Shown here piece by piece: positions 7,763 to 61,662 of a stretch of 64,000 bases of DNA. A program made the position numbers and the translations under genes. Numbering within the stretch: position 1 is the first letter of the stretch; the number at the start of each line of letters is the position of its first letter. Origin of the DNA: Rhodoferax sp. (GTDB taxonomy: Bacteria > Pseudomonadota > Gammaproteobacteria > Burkholderiales > Burkholderiaceae_C); NCBI RefSeq assembly GCF_028715765.1, contig NZ_JAQURE010000002.1:1-64000 (forward strand), in the 5' to 3' direction. The notes under the pieces were generated by a model that was not told the origin of the DNA, ran no database searches, and saw only the letters and a list, made by a program, of their open reading frames with translations.

Positions 7763-9085
7763 ATGAGCATCAAAACCATCAAAATGCCAGACATTGGCGA
7801 AGGCATTGCCGAAGTGGAGCTGGTGGCCTGGCATGTGCAAGTGGGCGACGAGGTGACCGAAGACCAGATTTTGGCCGACGTGATGACCGACAAAGCCACG
7901 GTTGAAATCCCCTCACACGTGGCTGGCACCGTGCTCAGCCTGGATGCAGTGGTGGGGCAAGTGGTGGCTGTAGGCACTGAGATTATTCATATCAATTCGG
8001 CTGTAGCGCCCGTATTACAAGCACAAGCAGCTATTGATAATGATGCAAGCAGTGAAGTCTGCGTTGACACCGTACCCACTCTAGCAAGCGCACCAGCAAC
8101 AGCACCAACACCTGTATCGGCACCAAATGCACCCAGCCCGGCCTTACCCCCTCCCTCTTTTGGAGAGGGTTGGGGTGGGGGTTTGCCAGCCCGTCCAACC
8201 ACCCACTTGCGCCCGATTGCCGCGCCCGCCGTGCGCAGGCGCGCCTGGGAGCTTGGCGTTGACCTGAGCCAAGTGCCCGCCACGGGGCCTGCCGGGCGCA
8301 TCAGCCAGGCTGACCTGGCAGGTTTTGCTGCAACCCACTCCATAAATAATAGCAACTCATGCAATGAAGACGAGCGCTACAGGCCAATGGATGCCACAGA
8401 AATGGTGCCCGTGATCGGCCTGCGGCGCAAAATTGCGCAAAAGATGCAAGAAGCCAAGCAGCACATTCCGCACTTCACTTACGTCGAAGAAATCGACGTG
8501 ACTGAGCTGGAGACACTGCGCGCACAGCTCAACGCCCAACACGCCAACCAACGTGGCCGATTGACGCTGCTGCCCTTTTTGATGCGCGCCATGGTGATGG
8601 CTGTGCGCGAGCACCCGCAAGTGAACGCCCGGTTTGATGATGCGGCCAACATGCTGACCCGATTTTCAGCGGTGCATTTGGGCATTGCCACGCAAACGCC
8701 TGGGGGCTTGATGGTGCCGGTGGTGCGCCACGCCGAAACGCTTGACCTGTGGGCCAGTGCCGCCGCCGTGACGCGTGTCAGTGAGGCCGCCCGCAGTGGC
8801 CACGCCACCCGCGAAGACTTGAGCGGCTCCACGCTGACCCTGACCAGCCTGGGGGCGCTGGGTGGTGTGGTCAGCACACCAGTCATCAACTACCCCGAGG
8901 TGGCCATTGTGGGCACCAACCGCATGGTGGAGCGGCCGGTTTTTCAAGGCGGGCTGGTGGTGGCGCGCAAACTAATGAATCTATCAAGCTCGTTTGACCA
9001 CCGGGTGGTTGATGGCATGGATGCGGCCAAATTCATTCAGCACATCCGCACGCTGCTGGAGTGCCCAGGCCTGCTGCTGGTGTGA
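7763..9085 (+). CDS. bkdB: branched-chain 2-oxoacid dehydrogenase E2 (dihydrolipoamide acyltransferase)
   Basis: A 440-residue E2 core protein. It has one lipoyl domain (residues 1-80; lipoylated Lys44 in MTDKATVEIP), an Ala/Pro/Thr linker, a peripheral-subunit binding domain (about 155-190, RPIAAPAVRRRAWELG to GRISQADL) and an acyltransferase domain ending in the catalytic SSFDHRVVDGMDAA. It transfers the acyl group from E1 to coenzyme A; the E3 lipoamide dehydrogenase is not in the window and must come from elsewhere. The linkers contain two copies of the 36-bp dispersed repeat (7999-8034 and 8349-8384) plus a GC-rich palindromic repeat at 8147-8181, all in frame. The stop is three bases from the cheB stop on the other strand. 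Confidence 0.93.
   Translation: MSIKTIKMPDIGEGIAEVELVAWHVQVGDEVTEDQILADVMTDKATVEIPSHVAGTVLSLDAVVGQVVAVGTEIIHINSAVAPVLQAQAAIDNDASSEVCVDTVPTLASAPATAPTPVSAPNAPSPALPPPSFGEGWGGGLPARPTTHLRPIAAPAVRRRAWELGVDLSQVPATGPAGRISQADLAGFAATHSINNSNSCNEDERYRPMDATEMVPVIGLRRKIAQKMQEAKQHIPHFTYVEEIDVTELETLRAQLNAQHANQRGRLTLLPFLMRAMVMAVREHPQVNARFDDAANMLTRFSAVHLGIATQTPGGLMVPVVRHAETLDLWASAAAVTRVSEAARSGHATREDLSGSTLTLTSLGALGGVVSTPVINYPEVAIVGTNRMVERPVFQGGLVVARKLMNLSSSFDHRVVDGMDAAKFIQHIRTLLECPGLLLV
7999..8034 (+). repeat. 36-bp dispersed repeat, copy in bkdB linker
   Basis: GGCTGTAGCGCCCGT at the start and AGCACAAGCAGCTAT at the end match the family consensus (GCCTCTAGCGCYYGT, seven variable bases, then a block ending AGCTAT). 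It lies in frame just after the lipoyl domain and codes for a stretch around VAPVLQAQAAI. Confidence 0.75.
8147..8181 (+). repeat. GC-rich palindromic repeat inserted in the bkdB linker
   Basis: CCCTCCCTC, four bases, then GGAGAGGG and a G-rich tail TTGGGGTGGGGG. It codes for ALPPPSFGEGWGGG, a peptide unlike normal E2 linkers. Near-identical CCCTC...GAGGGTTGGGGTG repeats are widespread in Gram-negative genomes (recalled, not searched). It sits in frame in the flexible linker before the subunit-binding domain. Confidence 0.55.
8349..8384 (-). repeat. 36-bp dispersed repeat, second copy in bkdB
   Basis: Read on the minus strand it starts GCCTGTAGCGCTCGT and ends TTGCTAT after the invariant GC at bases 23-24. 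AT-rich flanks (CATAAATA on one side, CCAATGG on the other) are also shared with other copies. It lies in the linker between the subunit-binding and catalytic domains. Confidence 0.7.
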
Positions 9086-9088
9086 GGG

Positions 9089-10171
9089 TTAAACCCTGAA
9101 ACGGTCGGCCGTGGCGTTGAGCTTGGACATCAGCGCGGCGGCGATGTCTTTCAGGGGCAGCACTTCGTCTGCGGCGCCATGGGCAATGGCTTCTTTGGGC
9201 ATGCCAAACACCACGCATGAGGCTTCGTCTTGGACGATGTTGTAGCTGCCAGCGTCTTTCATCTCACGCATGGCACGGGCGCCGTCGTTGCCCATGCCGG
9301 TGAGCATGATGCCAAAGGCGTTGCGCCCAGCCACCTTGGCGCCTGAGCGAAACAGCACCTCGACCGAGGGTTTGTGCCGGTTCACCGGCTCGCCGTCTTC
9401 CACCACAGCCACGTAGTTGGCACCACTGCGGTCAATTCTGAACTGCTTGCCGCCCGGTGCCAGGTAGGCATGGCCGGGCAAAATGCGCTCGCCGTACTCG
9501 GCTTCACGCACAGCAATGCGACACAGGTTGTTGAGCCGAGCAGCAAAACTGGTGGTGAAGCCAGGTGGCATGTGTTGGGTAATGACAATGGCTGGAAAGT
9601 CAGCCGGCAATGGCATCAAGACTTCTTTGATGGCCTCGGTGCCGCCGGTTGAGGCGCCAATGAACACCAGCTTTTCAGTCGACACCCGGCCTTGCAAGCC
9701 GCCTAACATGGCGGCAGGCTGCGCCTGGGGTGTGGAGGTCTTATTGACCTGCGCCACGATGCGCCGAATGTGAGCGCTGGCCGCAATGCGGATTTTTTCA
9801 ACAATTTGACTCGACAGCTCGTTGATGCCATCTGCCACGCCCATGCGTGGCTTGGAGACAAAGTCCACCGCGCCCAGCTCCAGGGCTTTCATGGTGACCT
9901 CGGCACCGCGCTCGGTCAGTGTGGAAATCATCACCACGGGCATCGGGCGCAGGCGCATCAAACGGCCTAAAAAATCAATGCCGTCCATGCGCGGCATTTC
10001 AATGTCAAGGGTGATCACGTCGGGGTTGAGCTCGCGAATCATCTCGCGGGCAATCAACGGGTCATGCGCGGCACCCACACACTCCATGTCGGGCTGGCGA
10101 TTGATGATGCCCGCCAACAAACTGCGCACCAGCGCCGAGTCATCTACCACCACCACACGAATTTTCTTCAA
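9089..10171 (-). CDS. cheB: chemotaxis protein-glutamate methylesterase CheB
   Basis: A 360-residue CheB. The N-terminal receiver domain has the acidic pair DD at 10-11, phospho-acceptor Asp56 in [11 protein letters not shown] and the KP motif near residue 107. The C-terminal methylesterase domain shows the Ser/His/Asp triad in [20 protein letters not shown] and LTGMGNDGA. It demethylates and deamidates chemoreceptors during adaptation. The start is TTG at 10171, the only start next to the conserved [11 protein letters not shown]; no ATG is near, and the gap to the cheD stop is 10 bases. It is the last gene of the cheA-W-R-D-B run. Confidence 0.93.
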
Positions 10172-10181
10172 TTCAGCACCT

Positions 10182-60622: not shown

Positions 60623-60681
60623 GCCTTAGTGACTGAGCCGCCTGGGTTAGACTCGCGCCACATTTTTTGGGGACGACCCTT

Positions 60682-61605
60682 ATGAACCATCCAGCCAGCT
60701 CAAGTGTGACCGAGTGCGCGCCGCAAAGCGCCTCACCCTACGGCACCCTGCCCCCCACCAGCAACCCGGCACTGCGCAAGCCAGTGAGCCTGCCGCGCTT
60801 GCTGGAGATGCATGCCCGGGGTGAAAAGATCACCATGCTGACCGCTTACGACGCCACTTTTGCTGCCGTAGCCGATGCCGCTGGCGTGGAATGCATTTTG
60901 GTGGGCGACTCGCTCGGCATGGTTTGCCAGGGCCTCTCCAGCACCGTGGGCGTGTCGCTTGACACCATGCGCTACCACGTGGAGAGCGTCACCCGCGGCG
61001 TGCGCCGGGTGCAGGGCACGGCCTGGATCATTGGCGACCTGCCTTACGGCACTTACCACGAATCCAAAGAGCAAGCCCTGCGCAGCGCCGCCGTGCTGAT
61101 GCAAGCCGGTGCGCACATGGTCAAGCTCGAAGGCGGTGGCTGGACCGCTGACACCGTGCATTTTTTGGTGGAACGCGGCATTCCGGTCTGCGCCCATTTG
61201 GGCCTGACACCGCAAACCGTACACGCTTTAGGCGGCTACCGAGTGCAAGGCAAAACCCTGGAGTCTGCGGCCATCATGAAACGCCATGCGCATGAACTGC
61301 AAGACGCTGGCGCCACCCTGATGGTGTTGGAAATGGTGCCCAGCGCCCTGGCCTCAGCGCTCACCACCGAGCTGCCGCACTGCGCCACCATTGGCATTGG
61401 CGCGGGCAACGGCACCGCGGGCCAAGTGCTGGTGCTGCACGACATGCTGGGTCTGAACCTGGGCAAGATGCCCAAATTTGTCCGCAACTTCATGGCCGAC
61501 CTGCCCGGTGTGCCGGGTCAACATGGCATCAAAGAAGCCATGCAAGCCTATGTGGCGGCTGTCAAACAGGTCAGTTTTCCCGACAACGCCTTGCACGCCT
61601 GGTGA
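60682..61605 (+). CDS. panB: 3-methyl-2-oxobutanoate hydroxymethyltransferase
   Basis: A 307-residue Pan[30 protein letters not shown], and the metal- and substrate-binding KLEGGGW and LEMVPSALA segments match the family; the C-terminus has the [18 protein letters not shown] signature. It makes ketopantoate from 2-oxoisovalerate, the first committed step to pantothenate. The first 35 residues are a variable extension. ATG 60682 follows GGGGACGA; a TTG 15 bases upstream is less likely. It is followed by panC 55 bases on. Confidence 0.95.
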
Positions 61606-61626
61606 CAGGTTTTATATAACAAATAT

Positions 61627-61662
61627 GCCTCTAGCGCCCGTGGATACTGCGCAACCAGCTAT
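61627..61662 (+). repeat. 36-bp dispersed repeat overlapping the panC start
   Basis: GCCTCTAGCGCCCGT start and CCAGCTAT end, AT-rich flanks TTATATAACAAATAT and GAAAATTATC. The last two bases of the repeat are the AT of the likely panC start codon (ATG 61661). Confidence 0.8.

Follow-up and report, generated by a model that had tools for sequence, protein, structure and literature searches.

A dispersed 63-nt motif of Rhodoferax sp. as a probable DNA-level signal arising mostly in place

Among the described systems with which the repeat reported here can be compared are the uptake signal sequences (USS) and DNA uptake sequences (DUS), whose properties, in the excerpts of PMC1626085, include occurrence on both strands, a characteristic spacing and a larger number of perfect than of single-mismatch copies. 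The same excerpts report that a gap test of the kind used below showed the Haemophilus signals not to be insertions, gaps being present in 24% of the alignments. In a survey of motif pairs (excerpts of PMC5217627), GCTTAT(N)5AAGCG of Acidovorax ebreus figures as a potential novel motif, with 114 copies of which 107 are intergenic (94%), in 44 convergent, 4 divergent and 59 co-oriented gaps; ATAGCT(N)22CAAAAG of Polaromonas naphthalenivorans (81% intergenic) is included as well, and R. ferrireducens ranked first for the number of significant motif pairs, with 140. Here, we analysed 64,000 nucleotides of Rhodoferax sp. (RefSeq assembly GCF_028715765.1, contig NZ_JAQURE010000002.1, positions 1 to 64,000; this whole stretch is referred to as the window), in which an earlier note had described a 36-bp dispersed repeat that enters reading frames without breaking them. 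We found the repeat to be the core of a motif of about 63 bp that is very probably a genome-wide DNA signal formed mostly in place.

The motifs of A. ebreus and P. naphthalenivorans, compared here by their published description, are of the same family by name. GCTTAT(N)5AAGCG corresponds to the middle of our motif (bases 10-15 and 21-25), and divergent gaps are avoided by both; the two published motifs differ from ours, however, in being mostly intergenic, and the excerpts of PMC5217627 give no full length, origin or function for them. Within the open-licence literature, we found neither a fuller account of the motif than that survey nor a paper on a DNA uptake sequence in Comamonadaceae. The copies of the betaproteobacterial repeat element BRE (excerpts of PMC3110155) are likewise found in Comamonadaceae and other families, some of them in coding sequence, but by description they are about 90 bp long, GC-rich (69% in Bordetella) and sometimes tandem.

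Identity, constraint and origin of the motif

The own-genome sample (G000) comprised 864 kb, namely the window and 40 further stretches, and was scanned with our own weight matrix and a covariance model, both trained on copies from this Rhodoferax sp. genome. With a threshold of at least 14 bits, the weight matrix returned 150 copies versus one in the reversed sequence that served as control, a density of 0.17 per kb or about one copy every 5-6 kb, from which hundreds of copies in the genome are extrapolated. In a model-free count, GCCTCTAGCGCYYGT with at most three mismatches matched the window 16 times versus 5.7 expected, a number reached in none of 100 shuffles; GCCTCTAGCGCTTGT with at most one mismatch had 79 matches in the own genome versus none for the reversed pattern. 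The repeat is thus a genuine dispersed family, and all ten copies of the earlier note were recovered in place, each exactly 36 nt long. The covariance model, built from 18 copies including these ten, gave them 30-50 bits, scores that are high by construction, and 17.7 bits to the next site in the window; among the best 150 genome matches scored with it, all but two were exactly 36 nt. However, conservation in the weight-matrix profile extends from -14 to +48, so that the 36 nt stand as the core of a unit of 63 nt, and the AT-rich tails ending in ATAGC, previously taken for flanks, belong to the motif. The profile runs through an AT-rich arm, AAAT, GCCTCTAGCSCTTAT, a variable middle, GCGYRAGYAGCTAT, AATTT and ATAGC, and its consensus combines a conserved GCCTCTAGCSC...GC......AGCTAT core and AT-rich arms with weak dyad symmetry.

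In a congener, G010, a closely similar consensus was found, with 1.2 Mb yielding 202 copies and the reversed sequence none, and sites could be compared between the two genomes. Among sites whose flanks are syntenic, 24 of 27 G000 copies are matched at the equivalent position of G010, and in the reverse direction 24 of 28 G010 copies are matched, with at least 14 bits, in the G000 sample. For the constraint test, copies were selected by their G000 score irrespective of the state in G010; in the 26 gap-free cores, two of them with a motif-less partner, identity was 83% at high-information positions versus 53% at low-information positions. At 20 genic sites, third codon positions on high-information bases were identical at a rate of 0.86 (n=97), compared with 0.58 in flanking codons (n=2772; Fisher p 1.2e-8 for motif versus flanks) and 0.53 on low-information bases (n=121). 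In addition, shuffling of synonymous codons, which leaves the proteins unchanged, reduced the in-gene matches from 77 to 7, 6, 4, 7 and 3, ruling out chance or protein-level convergence.

For the gap test, 28 fragments around genic copies, hand-picked for recognisable, conserved proteins, were searched in Variovorax paradoxus, a motif-free reference with no motif-model match at E<=0.01. Nineteen gave clean comparisons, in seven the alignment extended well beyond the fragment, and these (net -4 to +2) were left out, one did not span the copy and one had no hit; net values were taken from table spans, not printed alignments, and the clean case C9:19148 may be a paralogue. The net difference was zero in seven of the clean genes, among them copies of 40 bits (ileS), 35 bits (aroA), 33 and 31 bits, and at most 4 residues in eight more (15/19), while a net of +12 or +21 residues, the element's own length, was found in none of the 19. 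MltG, with a 43-bit copy, aligned without a gap across the copy to PDB structure 8yq7; other PDB alignments gave, near the copy, +5 for AroA (versus E. coli), +5 for AroE, +8 for Tmk, about -1 for MoeA and -9 for IleS. By these net lengths, the motif-free homologues of window copies (below) and the MltG alignment, insertion of a 36- or 63-bp unit is rejected for most of the tested genes, and the proposal that the repeat enters reading frames fails for them; it holds, at best, for a minority of sites with net inserts of other sizes.

Other comparisons speak against an origin in place. Four of the 19 clean genes had net gains of +7, +10 (Cca), +14 (TrpA) and +35 residues (UvrC). A smaller test set nine sites against 240 kb of motif-free genomes and short loci; two sites (27 and 16 bits) were at zero, and the other seven were at +2, +3, +8 (four sites, in two genes and two species) and +17 (a G010 site), some of the gaps falling beside, not within, the copy. 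Two high-scoring intergenic sites, moreover, were missing in G010, one of them as a 67-nt shorter stretch.

Taken together, the in-place lengths, the shared sites, the third-position identity and the codon shuffling argue for a signal at the level of the DNA, for the most part formed and maintained in place. We hold with high confidence that, in the tested genes, the motif mostly arose by substitution and small insertions and deletions, is kept by constraint on the DNA, and was mostly not inserted. Whatever its function, this is a DNA motif that has left its mark on the amino-acid sequences of conserved enzymes in more than one species.

An oxidoreductase-like conserved stretch carries weak copies of 20, 17 and 20 bits in three genomes (G000 C2:99238, position 157764 of the G010 sample and position 63198 of the Extensimonas sample, respectively), with no gap within the copy itself versus Variovorax.

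Copies in the window

The copies in the window are as follows, with scores in weight-matrix bits and genes called by our own codon-usage caller, not a standard tool.

7984..8046 (core 7999-8034), + strand: motif copy, 40.5 bits, in the lipoyl-side linker of the 2-oxoacid dehydrogenase E2 gene 7763-9085 (Pfam)
8336..8398 (core 8349-8384), - strand: motif copy, 32.5 bits, in the second linker of the E2 gene 7763-9085
30735..30797 (core 30750-30785), + strand: motif copy, 35.3 bits, in the methionyl-tRNA synthetase linker before the tRNA_bind domain (Pfam)
34533..34595 (core 34548-34583), + strand: motif copy, 31.7 bits, in the MmeI-type restriction-modification gene 33862-36495 (Pfam)
37150..37212 (core 37165-37200), + strand: intergenic motif copy (own caller), 52.8 bits, the best in the window
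37545..37607 (core 37558-37593), - strand: intergenic motif copy (own caller), 36.6 bits
42220..42256, strand not assigned: site below threshold, perhaps a decayed copy or a chance match, 17.7 bits (covariance model) and 9.1 bits (weight matrix)
45462..45524 (core 45475-45510), - strand: motif copy, 33.8 bits, in the 5' part of the Complex1_30kDa/49kDa-type gene 45338-46927 (Pfam)
46051..46113 (core 46066-46101), + strand: weak motif copy, 15.0 bits, in a conserved protein part of gene 45338-46927
50913..50975 (core 50926-50961), - strand: eleventh motif copy, outside the earlier ten, 23.7 bits, in the called gene 50513-51040
58077..58139 (core 58092-58127), + strand: intergenic motif copy (own caller), 42.3 bits
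61612..61674 (core 61627-61662), + strand: motif copy, 39.9 bits, at the pantoate ligase start, on the edge of the called gene 61625-62509 (Pfam PF02569)

Of the original ten copies, eight had been assigned to genes; by our caller six are genic, whereas 37165, 37558 and 58092 are intergenic and 61627 lies at a gene start. The additional copy with core 50926-50961 reaches 23.7 bits by weight matrix but only 13 by covariance model.

At the equivalent places in 29 relatives, more than 14 bits were scored in 10 for the 7999 copy, 7 for the 8349 copy and 16 for the 30750 copy. Because the linkers at 7999 and 30750 are too variable in length among relatives, insertion cannot be judged there, whereas the linker at 8349 has equal length in most relatives, motif-bearing or motif-free. 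For the two copies in gene 45338-46927, 16 relatives were compared. The 45475 site had 27-48 bits in six, 11.6 in one and less than -10 in nine, and the length across the copy was the same in motif-free homologues; the 46066 spot had 20.9-26 bits in seven and less than -12 in the other nine, with no gap in the aligned homologues and the same length without the motif. The notion that the weak 46066 copy is a chance match was dropped, since a motif-like sequence stands at the same place in seven relatives.

The metG linker seems to collect different repeats: in the relatives L178, L180, L188 and L189, other repeat-like peptides, SSLPPEGVVLALGRPGGE and PSPQPSPAGRGSE, are present there. In the own genome, the gene with the 34548 copy and a gene at C4:13179 (one of the two MmeI-type, Pfam) have similar surrounding protein and carry motif copies at the corresponding place.

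Occurrence in relatives and genomic placement

As only the best N matches were scored per genome, copy numbers in relatives are lower bounds. At E<=1e-4, at least one match was present in 28 of 60 genomes of the genus (own included), the richest having at least 105, 97, 94 and 56 (best 115 scored per genome), and a family sample had matches in 33 of 150 genomes (best 46 scored). A second survey, in which 20 named transposase loci led to 19 genomes (E<=0.01, best 150 matches scored each), gave at least 118 to 148 matches in R. ferrireducens and in five Rhodoferax or unassigned metagenome-assembled genomes (MAGs) or isolates; at least 109 in Simplicispira, 92 in Acidovorax SRB_14, 75 in Extensimonas and 61 in A. 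soli; at least 12 and 1 in Polaromonas and 8 in one Rhodoferax MAG; and none in Variovorax (4 genomes), Hydrogenophaga and Acidovorax Root219. Rhodoferax antarcticus has a closely similar consensus, with 19 copies in 80 kb. The occurrence in Comamonadaceae stated in the earlier note was thus borne out for part of the family genomes. The 63-nt consensus had no match in plasmid and phage collections. In ten viral contigs (L330-L339), a long variant of the motif occurs in exact form and may represent host flanks of prophages.

The 150 copies of the sample fall into 75 in called genes, 63 intergenic and 12 at gene edges; random positions are 86% genic, 6% intergenic and 8% at edges, so that the copies are enriched between genes (42% versus 6%) but not confined there. 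Strands are balanced, both overall (71/79 in G000 and 94/108 in G010) and among the genic copies (36 sense and 39 antisense). The coefficient of variation of the gaps between copies, 0.87 in G000 and 0.92 in G010, indicates a spacing slightly more regular than random, a modest effect; gaps below 500 bp made up 4.3% versus 9.5% expected in G000 and 6.0% versus 8.1% in G010, and neither genome had an excess of close pairs that would indicate clustering. Intergenic copies lay in 45 tandem, 14 convergent and 4 divergent gaps, compared with 210, 40 and 66, respectively, for all gaps of at least 60 nt (n=316).

The longest motif-free stretch in the sample was the first 70 kb of contig 3 (C3:1-70238), a region of atypical composition with no copies where about 12 would be expected, picked as the longest gap. 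Prophage genes are present there: a tape measure, a tail sheath, a portal and a terminase are among five proteins taken from the initial 30 kb. Uptake signals are scarce in foreign DNA. Genic copies were also found in the genome-maintenance genes recB (C10:44784), uvrA (C11:1308 and C11:3103), uvrC and ligA (C10:30368 and C6:65247), a class that DUS reportedly favour, to go by the title of a 2004 paper.

Half of the copies lie in genes in preferred frames, as proposed earlier, but entry into those frames by insertion does not hold for most of the tested genes. In the favoured frames, the copies encode peptides rich in Ala and Leu that fall in linkers, signal peptides and helices (by eye), and frame use follows the encoded peptide, not the stop content. 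Among the 63 intergenic copies, 46 leave the sense frame at base 1 open, yet just 2 of the 75 genic ones use it, and the favoured sense frame, at base 2 (30 genic copies), is open in just 16 of the 63; antisense frame 0 is open in 46/63 and used by 24 genic copies, and antisense frame 1 is open in 1/63 and used by 13/75. A simple process of insertion followed by stop-codon filtering would not yield this mismatch. In addition, genic and intergenic copies differ in their variable bases.

Possible function and rival explanations

In behaviour, the motif comes closest to the USS and DUS of Pasteurellaceae and Neisseriaceae, being over-represented on both strands, somewhat regular in spacing, present in coding and non-coding sequence and shared by relatives, and it resembles USS in its conserved core with AT-rich flanks and its origin in pre-existing coding sequence, not insertion (excerpts of PMC1626085 and PMC3630211). 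The best overall explanation, which we put forward with reserve, is an in-place signal for the recognition or uptake of own DNA; by the same analogy, it is possible, with slightly less assurance, that the motif is a DNA-uptake or self-recognition signal specifically. The cell would recognise its own DNA by the motif, most likely in the manner of an uptake signal: motif-bearing fragments would be preferred by a DNA receptor on the surface or pilus, or by a recombination factor. Alleles with better matches would then be imported and recombined back more frequently, and such a bias would create and maintain copies wherever the encoded peptide tolerates them. More tentatively still, sequence-specific DNA uptake may have originated separately here, with Rhodoferax and its relatives marking their chromosomes with a 63-bp partly palindromic signal. 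If true, this signal would be longer than the uptake signals in the literature covered and would reshape linkers and helices of conserved proteins, being kept across species. An uptake signal would here lie outside Pasteurellaceae and Neisseriaceae, where such signals are established in the literature covered, would have a much longer, symmetric site, and would make the debate on origin, by molecular drive or selection, testable in environmental bacteria.

Several differences and counts weigh against uptake. The motif belongs to another bacterial family (Comamonadaceae), its length of about 63 nt compares with a core of 9-12 nt in USS and DUS, and it is 5-6 times rarer (0.17 versus about 1 per kb). 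Its consensus is looser, the best 9-mer being perfect in 36 and single-mismatch in 48 of the 150 copies, whereas perfect copies outnumber single-mismatch ones in the systems described in the excerpts. The partial dyad symmetry fits a dimeric DNA-binding protein equally well. Thirty-two of the 60 genus genomes had no match at E<=1e-4, and one of six 200-kb bins of G010 was unequal between strands (12 versus 29). ComEC is present in the genome, but an E. coli control scores too.

The same facts would be explained almost as well if the motif were the site of a dimeric protein in chromosome organisation, replication, segregation or repair, with selection acting at each site. The dyad-like halves (best symmetry at offset 3, correlation 0.43), the loose consensus, the spacing, the strand balance, the in-place constraint, the absence from the prophage-bearing region and the scarcity at divergent promoters (4 of the 63 intergenic copies versus 66 of 316 gaps) all agree with such a protein; however, congeners manage without the motif, and hundreds of sites kept over 75-90% protein identity would need selection on every one. 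Chromosome-organising sites are, moreover, usually regional or orientation-biased, and we consider this explanation rather unlikely. If it were correct, a recognition system across many Comamonadaceae chromosomes would have gone unexplained. An element acting at the RNA level, as a transcription terminator or mRNA structure, would account for the preference of intergenic copies for tandem and convergent gaps, as with the similar A. ebreus motif (excerpts of PMC5217627), and for a partial hairpin that pairs better in its true register (66.8%) than when slid (at most 48.4%), although this is expected of any structure derived from a consensus. The pairs formed are nevertheless hardly more than in shuffled copies (66.8% versus 65.8%), the covariation score was matched by 148 of 500 shuffles, and antisense copies are as frequent as sense copies in genes; for one of five measures (cells with changes on both sides), only 7/500 shuffles came up to the observed value. 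A conserved hairpin was rejected for its little covariation support, so that the pairing earlier suggested for the centre of the core is not clearly maintained, and long-range pairing of the AT arms was absent from the top 45 mutual-information pairs. An RNA-level role is very improbable.

Own-DNA recognition or uptake has also to be set against two explanations by mobile elements. The earlier note likened the repeat to the Rickettsia palindromic elements (RPEs), which are likewise short repeats in genes that leave the frame open but, unlike most tested copies here, are described as insertions (excerpts of PMC3733652). Both 36 and 63 are divisible by three, copies occur in linkers and signal peptides (by eye), the 7999 and 30750 copies stand in linkers of variable length, and UvrC, TrpA, Cca, one G010 site and Tmk have the gains of +35, +14, +10, +17 and +8 residues given above; yet a gain of +12 or +21 was never found, seven of the 19 genes were at exactly zero, the 45475, 46066 and mostly the 8349 sites have equal length in motif-free homologues, and frame use does not track stop content. 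An inserting element of this kind is largely refuted and scarcely credible, a caution that in-gene repeats of multiple-of-three length need not be insertions. The other candidate is a repetitive extragenic palindromic (REP) element spread by a REP-associated tyrosine transposase (RAYT), with copies inserting or converting into place. Many short imperfect palindromes, one RAYT with an adjacent copy and in-frame REP insertions are features shared with REP/REPIN-RAYT systems (excerpts of PMC6006769 and PMC2817692). The own genome has a single Y1_Tnp gene (NCBIfam REP_Tyr_transpos, 79.3 bits with a cut-off of 80), a motif copy begins directly after its stop codon (L009:2167-2202), and a recognisable copy stands at most 16 nt from the RAYT stop in 17 of 80 relatives; the right flank of the RAYT gene, which by eye reads GCTMY-N3-TTTTGAT in most loci, resembles the right end of the motif and may point to an ancestral link between the two; frame-keeping REP insertions are on record (PMC6006769, in excerpt), and some genic sites have net inserts. 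However, gltB lies downstream of the RAYT gene in 79 of the 80 relatives, the remaining record ending early, so that the 17 adjacent copies are not independent but one gltB-linked locus by descent. At E<=1e-20, 25 of the 28 congeners with the motif and 27 of the 32 without it have a RAYT homologue (a few partial or distant), and hence RAYT presence does not predict the motif. The 63-nt profile has, by inspection, no GT[AG]G tetranucleotide at the hairpin foot; a GTAG-type tag, a clear hairpin and clusters are thus absent, half of the copies are genic, and most are in place with no net insertion. By eye, the locus L009 has one copy downstream and none upstream in place of two inverted copies flanking the RAYT gene, and the ends resembling terminal inverted repeats differ from the motif in sequence; also by eye, the motifs NHFH and YIDLNP and the length fit RAYT subclass 2.1, for which no REP-like sequences were found according to the excerpts of PMC6006769. 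RAYT as the sole driver was therefore rejected, its adjacency being one gltB-linked locus and its presence not tracking the motif, and the REP explanation as a whole is improbable.

In most of the loci (L009 and L080-L159; by eye), the RAYT gene is bounded by ends resembling TGTCCCYAATTA...AATTGGAATCTGACCCCAATTA and is gltB-linked across Comamonadaceae.

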